Below, piece after piece: positions 917 to 33,472 of a stretch of 38,905 nucleotides of DNA. Where the stretch lies: the IMG/VR virus record IMGVR_UViG_3300047381_000835, positions 1-38,905 of that record; one strand, written 5' to 3'. The notes beneath the pieces were generated by a model, which saw only the letters and a list, made by a program, of their open reading frames with translations, was not told the DNA's origin and did not search any database. A program made the translations under genes and the position numbers. How positions within the stretch are numbered: position 1 is the first letter of the stretch; each line of letters starts with the position of its first letter. The stretch comes from a virus.

Positions 917-1222
917 ATGAGTAAAAAAAAATCATTAGTTTCTGTTAAAGTAATTAAAGGAGATATTAACAGAGCACTTAAAAAATACAAAAGATTAGTA
1001 AGTGATAGTGGCCACTTATTAGAACTTAGAGAAAGAAAATACTACAAAAAACCCACAACCATCCGTAGAAGAGAAAAACAATTAGCAGTTAGAGAACAGC
1101 AAAAACTAACTATTTTGGAAAAAATAGAAGGAGGTGATACTACTGTTAAGATGTTTACTAAGAAAAGAAAGAAAAAAAAGGGTGGAAAACCACAAAATAA
1201 AAATAAATCTACTAAAAATTAG
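917..1222 (+). CDS. rpsU: Ribosomal protein bS21 homologue, phage-encoded, with basic C-terminal extension
   Basis: bS21 is a small-subunit protein that sits near the 3' end of 16S rRNA, by the anti-Shine-Dalgarno, and affects initiation. Residues 8-59 show the family pattern: V-x-V-K-V near the N-terminus, D-I-N-R-A-L-K-K-Y-K-R (16-26; compare A-L-R-R-F-K-R), S-G-H-L-L-E-L-R-E-R (31-40; compare A-G-V-L-x-E-x-R-R-R), then KYYKKPTTIRRREKQLAV (41-58; compare F-Y-E-K-P-T-x-x-R-K-R). Cellular bS21 is about 55-75 residues. This protein has 101, with an extra Lys-rich tail from about residue 70 (KKRKKKKGGK). Phage-encoded bS21 is an established phenomenon in marine phages, where it is thought to replace the host copy on ribosomes. 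It stands immediately before the scaffold and capsid unit, behind its own motif, so late expression is likely. The family call is strong; the effect on translation is inference. Confidence 0.9.
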   Translation: MSKKKSLVSVKVIKGDINRALKKYKRLVSDSGHLLELRERKYYKKPTTIRRREKQLAVREQQKLTILEKIEGGDTTVKMFTKKRKKKKGGKPQNKNKSTKN

Positions 1223-1398: not shown

Positions 1399-2559
1399 AT
1401 GGCAAATTCAAATTTGTTAAAAGAAGCTATCGCTGATGCTAAAGCTGTTCGTGAAACTGCAATTGCTAATGCCAAAATCGCTTTAGAAGAAGCTTTCACT
1501 CCAAGATTACAATCAATCTTATCTCAAAAACTTCAACAAGAAATTGAAGAAGGTGAAGAGGAAGATTCAGTTGAAGAAACTGATGTAAAAGTGGACGAGG
1601 AAGATATTTCTGAAGAATACGATAAAGATGATGCTCCTGATGGAGATGCATCTGATATCGGAGATGGAGACAATAAAGCACCTGCAGATGATGCAAACTC
1701 TTCATCAGACGTAGCTCAAGAAAATCCTGACACCGAAGCTGAAACTGCTGAAGTTGGTTCTGAAGAGGACGATACTGAAGTTGTTAAAGAAGGTGAAGAG
1801 GAAGAAGAAGAACAAGTATCTGAAGATTCTCACGAAGATGTTGATGAAACATATGGTGAAGAAGAAGAAGATGAACTTGACTTGGAATCAATCATTAAAG
1901 AACTTGAAGAAGAACTTGATGATGAGGAAGAGGAAGAAGTAGCTGATATCGCATCAGATGAAATCGAATCTCACGAAGAAGAACACCACAATGAAGGTGA
2001 AGAATCAGAAGAAGAATCTACTGATGAAATCGCTGAAGAAGAAGGTGAAGAATCTGAAGAAGATTTAGATGAAGATATCGACCTTAACGAAATCTTGAGA
2101 GAGATGGGTTATGGTGATGATGAAGAATCTGATGAGGTTTCTGAAGAAGAAGAAGAAGCTGAAGAAGGTGATGAACTTGACGAGGTTAAAGGTGAATTGG
2201 CAGAGGCAATGTCTACTATCAAAGAACTTAAATCTACTATCAATGAAGTTAACTTACTAAACGCTAAACTTCTTTACACAAACAAGTTGTTCCGTTCTTA
2301 TGACTTAACTAACGACCAGAAAATGAAAGTTGTTGAGACATTGGATAGAACAGGTAATGTAAGAGAAGTTAAACTTGTATTCAGTACATTAGCTGAATCA
2401 TTTAAGTTTAATGGAACTGCAAAAAAAGTAAAATCAAGTAAGATTAATGAATCATTCGCATCTAAACCAGTTGCATCAACTGCTCCTAAGAAGGAAGTAA
2501 TTGCTGAATCAACTAATACGATGGCTGACAGATTCAAAAAACTTGCTAACATTAATTAA
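1399..2559 (+). CDS. 22: Prohead core scaffolding protein, gp22-like
   Basis: The protein has 386 residues. Residues 1-45 form a helical, Ala/Leu-rich N-terminus (LLKEAIADAKAVRETAIANA). About residues 48-255 are extremely Glu/Asp-rich with many runs of four or more acidic residues. Residues 255-386 return to a predicted coiled-coil and helical region (ELAEAMSTIKELKSTINEVN) ending in a basic, Ser-rich tail. An acidic, low-complexity, helical protein directly before the gp23-type capsid gene is the T4 arrangement for the prohead core protein, which is assembled inside the prohead and then degraded by the gp21 protease. T4 gp22 is shorter (about 270 residues), so the acidic centre is expanded here. 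The protease and portal genes expected upstream are not in the window. The start is set by AAAGG at 1386..1390. Repeated GAA/GAT codons make short shadow frames inside the gene. Confidence 0.8.
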   Translation: MANSNLLKEAIADAKAVRETAIANAKIALEEAFTPRLQSILSQKLQQEIEEGEEEDSVEETDVKVDEEDISEEYDKDDAPDGDASDIGDGDNKAPADDANSSSDVAQENPDTEAETAEVGSEEDDTEVVKEGEEEEEEQVSEDSHEDVDETYGEEEEDELDLESIIKELEEELDDEEEEEVADIASDEIESHEEEHHNEGEESEEESTDEIAEEEGEESEEDLDEDIDLNEILREMGYGDDEESDEVSEEEEEAEEGDELDEVKGELAEAMSTIKELKSTINEVNLLNAKLLYTNKLFRSYDLTNDQKMKVVETLDRTGNVREVKLVFSTLAESFKFNGTAKKVKSSKINESFASKPVASTAPKKEVIAESTNTMADRFKKLANIN

Positions 2560-2588: not shown

Positions 2589-4199
2589 ATGGCAAATTTT
2601 GATTTATCTAAATTAATGGAAGGAAAGAACCCACAGTCTGTAATGCTTGCTGAAACAAGAGAGCTTAAAGGAAAATGGGAACAAACTGGACTTCTTGAAG
2701 GTTTAGGAGAAAGAGAACAATCACAGATTTCTGTATTGTTAGAAAATCAAGCAAAACAATTGCTTGATGAAGCTACAAACACTGGAACAAGTGCAGGTAG
2801 TGAAGAATGGAGTGGGGTAGCCCTTCCATTAGTAAGACGTATCTTCGGTGAAATTGCATCGAAAGAATTCGTTAGTGTACAACCAATGAACTTACCATCA
2901 GGTCTTATATTTTATTTAGACTTTAAATATGGTACTGCTCAACCAGGTAACCCTGGATTTTCTGGAAAATCACTTTTCGGTGGTACTGGAGATGACTTAG
3001 GTTCAACTGATTCAGCTGTAAATGGTTTATACGGTGAAGGTAGATTTGGATATACTGTAAATGATGTATCTGATGAAGCTACAACAGGAGAACAAACTTT
3101 CGCAACTGCTTCATGGGCAGATGTAGGATTTGATGCTTCTTTATCAGCTTCAGTTGCTGCAAGTGAAATCGCTAAGATTTCTGTTGCTCACAACATCTTA
3201 GCAAGACCTGATTTAGATGCAGTAAGAAGTTACTACATTTCTTCATCAGATTTCGCAGGTGCTGATACATTCTATCCAGCTCACTCTAAAGTTAGTGGTG
3301 CTAACCTTGTATTCTTTGCAAAGGTAACTGACCTAACTGCAGGTGCTGGTGATGGATTAACAATCAAGTTTTCACAACAACCAATCGCTGAAAACAGAGG
3401 TGATTTTGAAGATGGAAATGCATCTTCACCAATCGGTGCTGATTTAGGTATTCCTGAAGTTGATTTAGAATTAAAGTCTGAAGCAATTGTTGCTAAGACT
3501 AGAAAACTAAAGGCTGTATGGACACCTGAACTTGCTCAAGACCTTAACGCTTACCACTCAATTGATGCAGAAGCTGAATTAACTTCTATGTTATCTGAGT
3601 ACATCTCATTAGAGATTGACTTAGAAATCTTAGATATGTTAAAAGCTAACGCTTTAACAACTGAGTACTGGTCAGTATCATTAGGTGAAGAGTATAACTC
3701 AGCGACAGGAGCTTGGGTAGCGGGAACTAATTCTGCAGCTTACACTAAGAACTCTTGGTTCCAGACTCTTGGAGCGAAACTTAACAAAGTTTCTAACAAG
3801 ATTCACCAATTAACACTTAGAGGTGGAGCAAACTTCGTTGTTGCTTCTCCAGACGTATGTACTATTTTAGAATCAATCCCAGGATTTACAGTTTCTGCTG
3901 ATAAAGATGCTTCATCTTTCGCAGCTGGTGTAACTACTGTTGGTTCTATCGCAAACAGATACACAGTTTACAAAAACCCTTACATGACTTCAAACGAAAT
4001 CTTGTTAGGATTTAAAGGAAGTAACTTCCTTGAGACTGGTGCTGTTTACGCTCCGTATGTACCATTAATCATGACACCTCTTGTATATGACCCAACTAAC
4101 TTTACACCAAGAAGAGGTGTAATGACTAGATACGCTAAGAAAATGGTAAGACCAGAATTCTATGGTAAAATCTATGTTAAAGATTTAGCTAACGTATAA
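2589..4199 (+). CDS. 23: Major capsid protein, gp23-like
   Basis: This 536-residue protein matches the T4 gp23 family in length (T4: 521) and pattern. It has a charged, helical N-terminal propeptide with KGKWEQTGLLEGL (27-39), then SEEWSGVALPLVRRIFGEIA, and the hallmark Q-P-M-N-L-P-S-G-L-I-F-Y-L (compare the T4 family pattern M-x-G-P-x-G-L-I-F). The C-terminus has YAPYVPLIMTPLVYDP and a final R-Y-A-K-K-M-V-R-P-x-F-Y-G. A candidate prohead-protease site of the (L/I)-x-E type is L59-D60-E61, near the T4 cleavage point at residue 65. AAGGAG (2576..2581) gives a good ribosome site. The gene follows the scaffold by 29 bases with no promoter motif between, so they share a transcript, and a strong terminator follows. 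It forms the hexamers of the icosahedral shell. Confidence 0.95.
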   Translation: MANFDLSKLMEGKNPQSVMLAETRELKGKWEQTGLLEGLGEREQSQISVLLENQAKQLLDEATNTGTSAGSEEWSGVALPLVRRIFGEIASKEFVSVQPMNLPSGLIFYLDFKYGTAQPGNPGFSGKSLFGGTGDDLGSTDSAVNGLYGEGRFGYTVNDVSDEATTGEQTFATASWADVGFDASLSASVAASEIAKISVAHNILARPDLDAVRSYYISSSDFAGADTFYPAHSKVSGANLVFFAKVTDLTAGAGDGLTIKFSQQPIAENRGDFEDGNASSPIGADLGIPEVDLELKSEAIVAKTRKLKAVWTPELAQDLNAYHSIDAEAELTSMLSEYISLEIDLEILDMLKANALTTEYWSVSLGEEYNSATGAWVAGTNSAAYTKNSWFQTLGAKLNKVSNKIHQLTLRGGANFVVASPDVCTILESIPGFTVSADKDASSFAAGVTTVGSIANRYTVYKNPYMTSNEILLGFKGSNFLETGAVYAPYVPLIMTPLVYDPTNFTPRRGVMTRYAKKMVRPEFYGKIYVKDLANV

Positions 4200-4352: not shown

Positions 4353-5504
4353 ATGTCTCAAGCAAGAATTTGGACAGGAACAACAACATTTACTTCAGGT
4401 TCATCAACTCCTTTTGGAATTTATGACTCTGATTCAACATTTCAGACAGATGCTCCGAAAGTTGCAAATTGGTGTGCAAGAAGATTAGGTTATCCTGTTA
4501 TTGATGTAGAATTAGAAGGTGATAACTTTTTCGCCGTATTCGAAGAGGCAGTATCAGAGTATTCTGCACAAGTAAATCAATTTAATATTAGAAATAATCT
4601 CGGTTCATTAGAAGGACAACCAACAGGTTCAAATTACCAAGGTAGTTCAGTTTTAGGCTCGGATTTAAATAATACTATCACCATAGCGGAATCATATGGT
4701 AATTTAGCAAACGTAGGTGGTAGAACAGATATCAAAAAAGGGTATGTTAATGTAAATACTGGTTCACAAGAATATGATATTCAATCATTGTGGGCAAATG
4801 TAAGTGAAAGTGGTGAAAGACTGGATGTAACAAAGGTATATTATGAAACATCACCCGCTATTCAAAGATTCTTTGACCCTTATTCGGTAAGTGGACAAGG
4901 AACACTTAACTTAGTTGATGAATTTGGATTTGGTTCATTCTCTCCAGCGGCACAATTTATAATGATGCCTATTTATGAGGATATGTTAAGAATTCAACAG
5001 ATTGAATTCAATGACCAAATAAGAAAATCTGCACATTCATTTAATATAGTAAATAATAAATTAACAATTTTACCAAAACCAACAACAGATTATAAACTTT
5101 GGTTTGAATATCAAGTTGTAAAGGATAGAACAGAAGCTTCTACTATTATAACTCCAAATGTAGTATCAGATTATTCAAATATTGGATATGATTTTGCAAA
5201 TTATAATAAAATTAATGATGTTGGTAGACAGTGGATACGAAAATATACACTTGCTTTGGCAAAAGAGATGTTAGGAGCAATCAGAGAGAAGTACAATACA
5301 GTACCAATACCTGGTTCTGAAGTTTCTTTAGATGGAGCTGCACTTAGAGCTGAAGCACAAACAGAAAAAGATGCTCTTATCGAACAATTGAGAGAGAATC
5401 TAAACGAAGTTAGTAAAAAACAAAGAATGGAGAACGAATCTAATATGGTTGAACAACAACAACAAATTATGAATCGAGTTCCACTCAACATTTATATAGG
5501 ATAA
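4353..5504 (+). CDS. Probable neck/head-completion protein (gp13 position)
   Basis: A 383-residue virion protein, first gene after the capsid terminator. The N-terminus has a Thr/Ser-rich stretch (WTGTTTFTSGSSTPFG), then V-A-N-W-C-A-R-R-L-G-Y-P-V-I-D-V-E-L (37-54) and FFAVFEEAVSEYSAQVNQFN, a pattern I associate with marine T4-like head-tail connector proteins. The C-terminal 100 residues are helical and Gln/Glu-rich (about residues 290-375), ending P-L-N-I-Y-I-G. In T4, gp13 and gp14 form the neck and gp15 caps the tail; three consecutive genes here could fill those roles in the same order. The length and order fit, but identity with gp13 is inferred from position rather than clear motif matches. 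The next gene begins four bases after the stop. Confidence 0.6.
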   Translation: MSQARIWTGTTTFTSGSSTPFGIYDSDSTFQTDAPKVANWCARRLGYPVIDVELEGDNFFAVFEEAVSEYSAQVNQFNIRNNLGSLEGQPTGSNYQGSSVLGSDLNNTITIAESYGNLANVGGRTDIKKGYVNVNTGSQEYDIQSLWANVSESGERLDVTKVYYETSPAIQRFFDPYSVSGQGTLNLVDEFGFGSFSPAAQFIMMPIYEDMLRIQQIEFNDQIRKSAHSFNIVNNKLTILPKPTTDYKLWFEYQVVKDRTEASTIITPNVVSDYSNIGYDFANYNKINDVGRQWIRKYTLALAKEMLGAIREKYNTVPIPGSEVSLDGAALRAEAQTEKDALIEQLRENLNEVSKKQRMENESNMVEQQQQIMNRVPLNIYIG

Positions 5505-13060: not shown

Positions 13061-13651
13061 ATGCCATCGTATAGTTCGAAATTACAGTTATCACCAGCTG
13101 GAGTTAGTGGTAATATAGTTTTAATGGATATAGACCCTATTAAGGGAGCCTTTGCGGTTTACACCTCAACAGAATTAAATGCAAAATCTGTAAATTATTT
13201 TTCTGATGGCCAATTAGTTTATGTTAGTGACAGTGGTTCATTATTTAAGGCAAAAGTAACTCCCGCAAACCCACCAGTTTCATTTGAAGATACAGTAACT
13301 TTTTCTGCTTTCTCATTTAATAGTGGTTCATTTGTATCTGCTTCATTTAATAGTTCAACAAGTGCATTAACCTTATTTGGTGAGGATGTACCTGGTTCAA
13401 CAAGAGTATCTATGTCTGTTGATTTATCTTCCCTCGAAGGAGGGGGAGGTGGAGGAGGTGGTGGTGATATCACCGCTGTATTTACATCTGATGAAGGTAT
13501 TACTGGTGGAGCTTCAAGTGGAAATGTAGTATTAGAATTAGACCCAGGTGATGGAATTTCTGTAAACTCTAATGGTATAAATATTAACACAGGTTCTAAC
13601 CACTTTACAGAGGCAGTTCAAAAAATTAATTTAGATGGTGGTATATTATAA
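13061..13651 (+). CDS. Small fibre-associated protein with polyglycine hinge
   Basis: A 196-residue protein. Residues 1-65 form a beta-rich domain (VSGNIVLMDIDPIKGAFAVY; GQLVYVSDSGSLFKA), residues 65-125 are Ser/Phe-rich strands, and a nine-Gly run (E-G9-D, about residues 127-137) acts as a flexible hinge. The C-terminal part has S-D-E-G-I-T-G-G-A-S-S-G-N and D-P-G-D-G-I-S-V-N-S-N-G-I, motifs that recur as T-A-G-A-G-L-T-G-G-G and N-G-I-x-I-N-A-D-N in the fibre at 15716. That similarity ties it to the fibre system. It has its own upstream motif and SD and is followed by a palindrome. It could be a short fibre or a fibre connector; the exact role is unknown. Confidence 0.75.
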   Translation: MPSYSSKLQLSPAGVSGNIVLMDIDPIKGAFAVYTSTELNAKSVNYFSDGQLVYVSDSGSLFKAKVTPANPPVSFEDTVTFSAFSFNSGSFVSASFNSSTSALTLFGEDVPGSTRVSMSVDLSSLEGGGGGGGGGDITAVFTSDEGITGGASSGNVVLELDPGDGISVNSNGININTGSNHFTEAVQKINLDGGIL

Positions 13652-30544: not shown

Positions 30545-32929
30545 ATGGCAGAAAAAATTGTATCACCTGGTGTATTTACGAGAGAAAATGACCTTTCTTT
30601 CTTAGCACAAGGGATTGGTGAGATAGGAGCAGCAGTAATTGGACCATTCCAAAAAGGACCTGCATTCGTACCAACCGTTGTCAGTACACAATCAGAATTT
30701 GAAGAAATATTCGGAACACCTAATGGTTCATACTATACAGGTTACACCGTACAAAATTATTTAAGAGAAGCAGGAACTGTAACAATTGTTAGAGTTGGTC
30801 ATGTAGGTGGGTATTCACATACAAGAGCAGCTGGTATAGTAGTTAGTGGTTCTGCGATTCAAGGAGGACGAAAATTAGTTGGAGTTTTACACGCAACACA
30901 CAATGGAGATGAATCTGTTGGTGTACTTGGTGATGGTGAACCTCTATCTGGTATTATAGATTGTCAACCTTCGGCATCAGCTTTCTCTATTAGTGGTTCT
31001 AACATAGGAACTGGAGTATCCGCATCTGTACTACCAAGTGCAGGAAATGATTTATCGGATGTATTTGGAGAATCTGCAAGAGGTTCTAAAAAAATATACA
31101 TGAACAAATACTTTGAAAAAAGAGCTGGTTCATTAGTTAATAACTTCTTAAGTGGTTCTAAAGTAACTGTAATTGATTTAGGTACTCAAGAATTTACACA
31201 AGATATTCAACACGCTTCCACTCCTTGGATACAATCTCAGTTGATTTCTGGTGAAAGAAGTGATTTATTTAGACTACATACTATCGGTGATGGTGGAAAC
31301 TACAATAAAGAATTTAAATTAGCAGTATTTAACGTAAAAGCAGCTGGTTCAAATAATTCTACTGATTACGCAACTTTCTCAATCGCAATTAGAGGATACT
31401 CTGATACAGATAAGAGACCAGTAATCTTAGAAACATTCAATAACTTGAACTTAGACCCTGCTTCACCAAATTACATTAAGAAAGTAATAGGTGATAGAAA
31501 CGTTGTAATAGATTCAAACGGAAAACAAACTGAAAACGGAGATTATGTAAATCGTTCTAAGTATGTAAGAGTAGAATGTAAAGTAGAAGGTTCATTTCCT
31601 GTAACTGCAGGACCATTTGGACATGGTAAATACTCATCACCACTTAGTGGTTCAGATAGTATTACACCTGGTGTAATCTTCTCAATAGATTCTAAAGATA
31701 ACAACGCATCGAATGGTGTACAATTTAGTGGAATTGATTTAGAGACAGGTACTGTTAAAATTGATAACTCACATTTCTTATCACCAATTCCAGTTGGAGC
31801 AGGATATGGTTCAAACACTGTATTTGCATTTGATGGAACTGTAACTACATCAGACGGAACACATTCATTTGGTTTTGAATTGACTGGTTCTGCAGCCGTT
31901 GATATTAACAAAAGACAATTTTTAGTTGGATTCCAAGGTGGATTTGATGGTTTATCTCCAACTACTGAAGTAGCACTTGCTGGTTCATCAGCAAACTTTG
32001 GTAGTGGTAACACACAAGGATTTAATTGTTCAACTTCAACCGCTAGTGGTTCAATCGCATATATTAAAGGTATTAACTCAGTATCTAACCCTGATGATTT
32101 TGATATTAACTTAGTATCAGCACCTGGTATTGTTCGTAGACATCACTCTTATGTATTTGATAAGATTGTTGATATGGTAGAAGCTAGAGAAGATGCATTC
32201 TTTATCGGTGATGTTGTTGGTGTAACTTACAACTCATCTAATGGAAATGTATCATCAGATACTATATCACAAGCAGTTGAACAAGCTAACGGATTAGATT
32301 CTAACTATGTAGGTACATACTACCCATGGGTTAAAACAATCGATTCAAGAACAAACAGACTAACCGCTGTTCCACCATCAGTATTGATGCCTGGAATATA
32401 CGCAGCCAATGATGCTGTAGCAGCTGAATGGTTTGCACCAGCTGGTTTAAACAGAGGTGGTATCGTAGGAGCTGTTTCTGTATTGAATAGATTAACACAC
32501 GCTGAGAGAGATACTCTATATGAAGGAAAAGTTAATCCAATCGCATCTTTCCCTGGTGAAGGTATTGTTGCATTTGGACAGAAAACTTTACAAGATAGAG
32601 CATCTGCACTTGATAGAATCAATGTAAGAAGATTAATGATTAAAGTTAAGAAGTACATTGCATCTACATCAAGATACTTAGTATTCGAACAGAATACGGC
32701 ACAAACAAGAGGTAGATTCTTGAATACTGTAAATCCTTATTTAGAAGGAATACAACAAAGACAAGGTTTATATGCATTTAGAGTGGTGATGGATGAGAGT
32801 AATAACACACCAGATGTAATCGACAGAAATATATTGGCTGGACAGATTTTCTTACAACCAACAAAAACTGCTGAATTCATCGTGTTAGATTTCAACATCT
32901 TACCGACAGGAGCATCATTCTCAGCATAA
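30545..32929 (+). CDS. 18: Tail sheath protein, gp18-like
   Basis: The protein has 794 residues (T4 gp18: 659). The N-terminus SPGVFTRENDLSFLAQGIGE then A-A-V-I-G-P-F-Q-K-G-P-A-F-V-P is the classic sheath start, with F-G-T-P and Y-T-V-Q-N-Y-L-R-E-A-G-T-V-T-I-V-R-V-G following. The middle (about 110-480) is a surface-exposed variable insertion region rich in Ser/Gly. The conserved C-terminal domain starts near 570: S-R-T-N-R-L-T-A-V-P-P-S, G-I-Y-A-A-N-D, W-F-A-P-A-G-L-N-R-G-G-I, N-P-I-A-S-F-P-G-E-G-I-V-A-F-G-Q-K-T-L, and RRLMIKVKKYIASTSRYLVF. Sheath subunits form the contractile tube around gp19 and shorten on infection. It is flanked by its own motif upstream and by the tube gene after 54 bases. 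Confidence 0.97.
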   Translation: MAEKIVSPGVFTRENDLSFLAQGIGEIGAAVIGPFQKGPAFVPTVVSTQSEFEEIFGTPNGSYYTGYTVQNYLREAGTVTIVRVGHVGGYSHTRAAGIVVSGSAIQGGRKLVGVLHATHNGDESVGVLGDGEPLSGIIDCQPSASAFSISGSNIGTGVSASVLPSAGNDLSDVFGESARGSKKIYMNKYFEKRAGSLVNNFLSGSKVTVIDLGTQEFTQDIQHASTPWIQSQLISGERSDLFRLHTIGDGGNYNKEFKLAVFNVKAAGSNNSTDYATFSIAIRGYSDTDKRPVILETFNNLNLDPASPNYIKKVIGDRNVVIDSNGKQTENGDYVNRSKYVRVECKVEGSFPVTAGPFGHGKYSSPLSGSDSITPGVIFSIDSKDNNASNGVQFSGIDLETGTVKIDNSHFLSPIPVGAGYGSNTVFAFDGTVTTSDGTHSFGFELTGSAAVDINKRQFLVGFQGGFDGLSPTTEVALAGSSANFGSGNTQGFNCSTSTASGSIAYIKGINSVSNPDDFDINLVSAPGIVRRHHSYVFDKIVDMVEAREDAFFIGDVVGVTYNSSNGNVSSDTISQAVEQANGLDSNYVGTYYPWVKTIDSRTNRLTAVPPSVLMPGIYAANDAVAAEWFAPAGLNRGGIVGAVSVLNRLTHAERDTLYEGKVNPIASFPGEGIVAFGQKTLQDRASALDRINVRRLMIKVKKYIASTSRYLVFEQNTAQTRGRFLNTVNPYLEGIQQRQGLYAFRVVMDESNNTPDVIDRNILAGQIFLQPTKTAEFIVLDFNILPTGASFSA

Positions 32930-32983: not shown

Positions 32984-33472
32984 ATGGCAGAAGTATTAGA
33001 ATTTAACGATATGTTTTATACCAACTTTGAACCTAAGATGCAAAATAGGTTCATCATGGAAATTGATGGTATTCCTTCATATCTTATAAAAGTAGCTACA
33101 AGACCAACTATTCAGTTTGAAACTGTTGTTCTTGACCACATCAATGTTAAGAGAAAACTCAAAGGTAAAGGGGATTGGCAAGATGTTACCATGACACTTT
33201 ATGACCCAATTGTTCCAAGTGGTGCACAAGCAGTAATGGAATGGGTGAGAACTTCTCATGAATCTATCACCGGTAGAGATGGATACGCAGATTTCTATAA
33301 AAAAGATATCCAATGTTATCTATTAGGACCTGTTGGTGATAAAATTGAACAATGGACTCTTAAAGGTGCATTTATCCAATCAGCAAACTTCGGTGGATTG
33401 GATTGGTCATCAAACGAACCTACTTCAATTGAATTGACACTTTCTTATGATTACGCAATCTTAGAATTTTAA
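32984..33472 (+). CDS. 19: Tail tube protein, gp19-like
   Basis: A 162-residue protein, almost the length of T4 gp19 (163). It contains F-E-P-K-M-Q-N-R-F-I-M-E-I-D-G-I-P (about 15-31), IKVATRPTIQFETVVLDHIN, KRKLKGKGDWQDVTMTLYDP (55-74), then A-V-M-E-W-V-R-T-S-H-E, KKDIQCYLLGPVGDKIEQW, and a final L-K-G-A-F-I-Q-S-A-N-F-G-G-L-D-W. These are the strand and loop landmarks of T4-type tubes. The subunits stack as hexameric rings within the sheath. The gene has a good SD and a strong terminator follows. It shows none of the repeat or low-complexity character of the fibres. Confidence 0.97.
   Translation: MAEVLEFNDMFYTNFEPKMQNRFIMEIDGIPSYLIKVATRPTIQFETVVLDHINVKRKLKGKGDWQDVTMTLYDPIVPSGAQAVMEWVRTSHESITGRDGYADFYKKDIQCYLLGPVGDKIEQWTLKGAFIQSANFGGLDWSSNEPTSIELTLSYDYAILEF

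Follow-up and report, generated by a model that had tools for sequence, protein, structure and literature searches.

The commonest ribosomal protein gene of viruses is the one for bS21, and the locus described here raises the question of what such a protein does for a phage that encodes it directly before its head genes. The locus lies in an IMG/VR virus contig of 38,905 bases (the whole stretch of DNA analysed, hereafter the window), which has T4-like myovirus traits: a gp23-type capsid (PF07068) and a contractile sheath (PF04984, PF17482). Judged by the capsid, the nearest cultured phages are Microcystis phage Mel-JY01 (52% identical), Flavobacterium phage immuto (51%) and Rhodothermus phage RM378 (40%); the capsid of an uncultured 484-kb phage is 55% identical. 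G001, a related 276-kb record, shares 71% identity with the window in bS21 and 85% in the capsid. An earlier note had proposed that the phage bS21 alters the use of Shine-Dalgarno (SD) sequences in favour of some late genes. The features needed for the argument are given below, with SD strength given as the energy (kcal/mol) of the duplex between the anti-SD and the 20 nt that precede the ATG.

876-892, + strand: late-promoter-like TATATACTTATATAAAA upstream of bS21; read from sequence, putative promoter
911-915, + strand: AGGAG, the bS21 SD, separated from the ATG by 1 nt
917-1222, + strand: bS21 gene, ATG start, 101 aa (PF01165 and phrog_21469)
1091-1093, + strand: AGA codon of Arg59, which aligns with Tyr54 of F. 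johnsoniae bS21 (HMM and MAFFT alignments)
1127-1219, + strand: basic Lys-rich C-terminal tail, about residues 71-101, seen in the sequence and kept in the closest relatives
1241-1249, + strand: late promoter motif TATATTTAT before the scaffold gene; the motif occurs ten times on this strand of the window
1399-2559, + strand: acidic scaffold-like gene, SD -7.6; immuto has an orthologue of the G001 gene in the same place, 44% identical
2589-4199, + strand: gp23-type major capsid gene, SD -8.2 (PF07068, E 3e-76); the immuto orthologue has no SD
4353-5504, + strand: head-tail adaptor-like gene, SD -8.9 (phrog_211)
30545-32929, + strand: tail sheath gene, SD -7.8 (PF04984/PF17482)
32984-33472, + strand: tail tube gene, SD -7.3, orthologue of a Mel-JY01 gene annotated as tail tube Gp19

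The profile search that the earlier note had called for bore out its assignment of the gene: PF01165 (Ribosomal_S21) matched residues 9-61 of the product (E 4e-13; score 49 bits, cut-off 27). PHROG 21469 'ribosomal protein S21' was matched as well (E 1e-9), and the PDB matches of the protein were bS21 chains. A search of the whole record found this single copy. The position directly before the scaffold-capsid unit and the Lys-rich extension of the bS21 core (about residues 70-101), both claimed from the letters, were confirmed. Scanning genomes with the alignment of phage bS21 turned up no bacterial relative. As to the neighbourhood, the gene before bS21 (531-875, weakly DUF5872-like) encodes a protein 99% identical to its G001 counterpart, while its neighbours are 76-85% identical. 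A possible leader ORF of 9 codons, ATGAATACCCACGATTCTTATGTGAGGTGA, lies between bS21 and the scaffold gene (1292-1321); its core CACGATTCTTATGTG is retained in L007, L108 and G001, and CACGATCCTTATGTG occurs at the same place in immuto (L101:18645).

In Bacteroidia, a pocket formed by bS21, bS18 and bS6 holds the anti-SD of 16S rRNA, and Tyr54 of bS21 stacks on A1534 (PMC9976891). The Y54A substitution, or depletion or loss of bS21, increases translation of strong-SD mRNAs in F. johnsoniae; a weak SD was unresponsive to bS21 mutation and the strongest effects required strong or extended SDs (PMC9976891). The aromatic residue 54 of this anti-SD sequestering, Bacteroidia-type bS21 is absent from the window protein, which has Arg59 instead. 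The MAFFT alignment is gap-free between the KP motif and Arg59, the F. johnsoniae reference sequence was verified against 7jil_z, and Arg occupies the position throughout the window clade. Most likely, this replacement of Tyr54 by Arg, and not the basic tail, is the relevant feature of the window bS21. The tail is unsupported as a cause of SD use, since relatives with a shorter tail (G009) also have late SDs.

Among cellular bS21, Tyr54 is found in 80 of 80 flavobacterial proteins, the rpsU SDs being very strong, and in 28 of 30 proteins sampled from the class Bacteroidia (one His, one Arg). In the wider phylum most of the best-scoring bS21 have Arg54, a share that is overstated because the phylum-wide sample takes the best scorers first. 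In the genome stretches read, SDs are used by Arg54 genomes and not by Tyr54 genomes: the mean delta (anti-SD duplex energy minus that of shuffled sequence) was -1.10 for Arg54 (n=17) and -0.16 for Tyr54 (n=22; p=0.002, by a statistic that ignores kinship). Residue 54 therefore marks SD-permissive versus SD-silent ribosomes within the phylum, by correlation across lineages. Its tracking of genome-wide SD use within Bacteroidota (L458-L477, L508-L527) may merit separate study.

Gene starts for SD measurement were set mechanically and blind to SDs, by taking the most upstream ATG that does not run into the preceding gene; the procedure is noisy but gives SDs no advantage. The strong SDs that the earlier note had named were recovered at the capsid, sheath and tube genes (energies above) and at 13061 (-9.3), 28815 (-7.3) and 38217 (-8.2). 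The genes it had described as SD-less proved to be so (30178, +1.6; 33593, -0.8; 34359, +0.1), as did 27810 (+0.5), which it had not named. Over the 11 structural genes scored in the window the mean excess over shuffled sequence was -2.6 kcal/mol, beyond chance.

No early region lies in the window, and the early-gene results come from relatives that have one. When annotated immuto orthologues were used to assign gene classes, structural genes had stronger SDs than replication genes in G001 (p=9e-5), G009 (3e-5) and G006 (0.001), and also in G007, G011 and G002 (range over all 3e-5 to 0.03); in these six genomes the SDs of replication-class genes were absent or weaker. The SDs of G001 cluster in the structural regions and in a second area near 223-237 kb; the rest of the genome has weak SDs, and over the genes that are not late there is a mild excess. 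The second area (G001:C1:222900-237200; L194) is a group of small unknown genes apart from the structural block, with strong SDs reaching -11.1 kcal/mol.

Immuto has no bS21 in its whole genome and no SDs in either its structural or its replication class. Over shared orthologues, the SDs of the window (p=0.004), G001 (1.6e-4), G002, G003, G009 and G006 exceed those of immuto. T4, taken as a control, has no early/late SD difference. In G006 and G009 the bS21 gene lies away from the capsid gene and structural SDs are nonetheless present. G012 and G013 were set aside as uninformative on a switch, because their SDs are found in all gene classes and Bacteroidota promoters are absent. The proposed tie between bS21 and late SD use thus gains comparative support, but the contrast runs between late and early genes and not, as had been suggested, among late genes. 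Judged from sequence, these comparisons support the view that in this phage group SDs belong with the late programme and accompany bS21 carriage.

The Bacteroidota promoter motif, TTG-N17..20-TAnnTTTG, is enriched in G009, G006, G011, G001 (5 occurrences versus 0.6 expected) and Mel-JY01, and its relaxed form is enriched in immuto. The late motif, TATATTTAT, is over-represented upstream of genes in the window (8 versus 0.3) and in its relatives. The TATATACTTATATAAAA site before bS21 is retained in several relatives and takes the clear TATATTTAT form in L008 and L013. SDs stand behind late promoters and are missing behind early host-type promoters in G001 (p=1.4e-4; 0 of 14 early genes), G009 (0.003), G006 (0.027) and G011 (0.024); in immuto the same comparison found the late-promoter genes without SDs.

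The early-promoter motif is phylum-wide and alone does not settle the host, since Arg54 hosts have it too. Strict and relaxed TAnnTTTG counts failed to separate Arg54 from Tyr54 hosts, and the SDs of early genes did better. Promoter-proximal genes of Arg54 hosts have a strong SD in 45% of cases (delta -2.56), as against a delta of +0.46 for early genes of G001; the phage early genes differ from these host genes (G001 p=2e-4, pooled p=6e-6) and match Tyr54-host genes in SD strength (p=0.46). The host of the window phage is thus most likely an SD-silent member of Bacteroidota, where an exchange of bS21 would have a known structural reason to matter. Mel-JY01 (W02, PP395634.1), recorded from Microcystis elabens, has a Lys-type bS21 and 20 Bacteroidota-type promoters versus 0.6 expected; the host on record may be mistaken, perhaps through a Bacteroidota companion in the culture. 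A literature search on Mel-JY01 gave nothing.

The bS21 gene has an SD of its own in an unusual place. Throughout the window clade (12 of 12 units) this AGGAG or AAGGAG ends 1 nt before the ATG. In GGAG-bearing structural genes the spacing is 4-13 nt, and 0 of 40 structural genes have a spacing below 4. In Arg-type relatives outside the window clade the bS21 start has no SD. Since a spacing of 1 nt should be unproductive, the expected effect of a freed anti-SD is repression of bS21. The arrangement suggests autoregulation by negative feedback.

On balance we favour, with some reserve, the reading that this T4-like myovirus encodes an Arg54-type, SD-permissive bS21 and, in an SD-silent Tyr54 host, switches late to SD-dependent translation. 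The sequences themselves show that the protein is a bS21, that Arg stands where Tyr54 would be, that relatives have an early/late contrast which immuto lacks, that the host residue goes with SD use, and that the 1-nt spacing is conserved. Host ribosomes in their original state would translate the early genes, which carry no SD. Later, a late promoter would drive synthesis of phage bS21, which would take the place of host bS21 on 30S subunits. As it lacks the Tyr that stacks on A1534, the 3' tail of 16S rRNA would no longer be tucked away and the anti-SD would become usable. Virion mRNAs with well-spaced SDs would then be favoured over host and early phage mRNAs that lack SDs. Translation of the bS21 mRNA itself, with its SD jammed 1 nt from the start, should be hindered by the freed anti-SD, giving negative feedback. 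We infer the host, the incorporation into ribosomes, the release of the anti-SD, the translational gain and the feedback from these data. The complete two-state programme, in which Arg-type bS21 makes ribosomes SD-reading, SDs are reserved for virion genes and the misplaced bS21 SD limits the switch, is put forward more tentatively, as an idea that could about as well prove wrong. As F. johnsoniae reporters responded only to strong or extended SDs, the effect of moderate phage SDs (-6 to -10 kcal/mol) may be modest.

Other explanations deserve to be weighed against this. The host could belong to Bacteroidota outside Bacteroidia, be of the Arg54 type and use SDs itself, so that the phage bS21 mimics the host protein and late SDs simply reflect high expression. 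Such lineages do exist, with bS21 motifs (KAIRRNQ, KAVRRAQ) resembling the phage ones, the promoter motif is common to both host types, and the mild SD excess of non-late G001 genes would fit as well. However, the complete lack of SDs on the 14 early genes of G001 is hard to reconcile with the share of strong SDs in Arg54 hosts, T4 shows no early/late contrast in an SD-using host, and the nearest cultured bS21-free relative infects Flavobacterium. We consider this explanation unlikely, though it is the most serious of the competitors. Somewhat less probable again is that the phage protein merely replenishes ribosomes whose host bS21 is short or degraded, the choice of mRNAs being unchanged and the late SDs having an independent origin, such as inheritance from ancestors in SD-using hosts. 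The need of F. johnsoniae for bS21 in growth (PMC9976891), the resemblance of Tyr54-type phage copies to host mimics and the small number of independent contrasts (see below) all agree with it. A host mimic, though, would not need Arg instead of Tyr, and the SDs look maintained, not residual, because they are kept in clades with widely diverged capsids and are absent from early genes, while immuto has none and the clade in which bS21 was not seen has weak ones.

The adjacency of bS21 to the scaffold and capsid genes and its Lys-rich tail also invite the idea that it acts mainly off the ribosome, for instance as a basic RNA-binding aid to head assembly. Synteny with protease, scaffold and capsid genes is indeed found in many relatives. 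The bS21 core is well kept, however, structural SDs occur in G006 and G009 irrespective of where the bS21 gene lies, and HTVC008M bS21 is reported to enter E. coli ribosomes (PMC9723584), so that a mainly off-ribosome role seems very improbable. The most economical reading remains that the host is of the Tyr54 type, the phage bS21 of the Arg type, and the late genes are suited to ribosomes whose anti-SD is free.

Across the capsid family, after removal of near-duplicates, the median structural delta was -2.59 for units with non-aromatic bS21 (n=42, including G012 and kin with their genome-wide SDs), -0.92 where no bS21 was seen (n=17, mostly absence from contig fragments) and -1.40 for aromatic bS21 (n=13). 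Phylogenetically independent contrasts numbered only 3-5, too few to reach significance; those that differed did so nearly all in the expected direction. Among Tyr54-type loci similar to those of Chen et al. (L305-L324, L338-L340, L343), structural genes mostly show little SD, and L031 combines an Arg-type bS21 with weak SDs. An absolute rule that Tyr54 means no SD was rejected, being broken by a marine clade (G014, G015, L091, L100) and by L341/L342. In this group (G014, G015 (L066, L086), L091, L100, L341, L342) bS21 has an N-terminal extension and an aromatic residue 54, and structural-gene SDs are present.

Phage bS21 is known (Mizuno et al., 2019; Chen et al., 2022), and earlier work had already proposed that it is expressed late and replaces the host protein. 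In the freshwater Bacteroidetes phages of Chen et al. (2022, PMC9723584) bS21 is found among capsid, protease, portal and terminase genes, with late expression and a proposed swap into host ribosomes; nearness to core structural genes also holds in the window, where scaffold and capsid follow directly. In those phages, however, residue 54 is aromatic (61 of 61 bS21 of Bacteroidetes phages) and bS21 lies on the opposite strand, whereas the window has Arg, the same strand as the structural genes, late-only SDs and a bS21 SD 1 nt from the start. The bS21 of Pelagibacter phage HTVC008M (Mizuno et al., 2019, PMC6375957) is of the same protein family and likewise from an aquatic phage, but the host of the window phage is most likely a member of Bacteroidota; no SD contrast was found in papers that cite that work. 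Immuto (MW353176) has homologous T4-like virion genes, Bacteroidota-type promoters and the TATATTTAT motif, and differs in lacking both bS21 and virion-gene SDs. F. johnsoniae rpsU offers the closest regulatory parallel, as anti-SD access is set by bS21 and Tyr54 and the bS21 gene is under SD-dependent feedback: once bS21 is lost, the anti-SD becomes free and an extended SD mediates the stimulation of rpsU (PMC9976891). In the window, by contrast, a foreign bS21 would free the anti-SD for many virion genes and the misplaced leader SD should repress.

An Arg-type bS21 in phages of Bacteroidota-type hosts, late-only SDs and their absence in a bS21-free relative are new, as are the link between host residue 54 and SD use and the misplaced bS21 SD; none of these was found in the literature searched. 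Residue, host physiology and phage gene layout converge on one mechanism, in which exchange of a single protein would yield specialised ribosomes for phage mRNAs marked in advance. If this is true, the SD blindness of Bacteroidia would be linked to phage takeover, and the phage protein may provide a natural switch for orthogonal translation in Bacteroidota.
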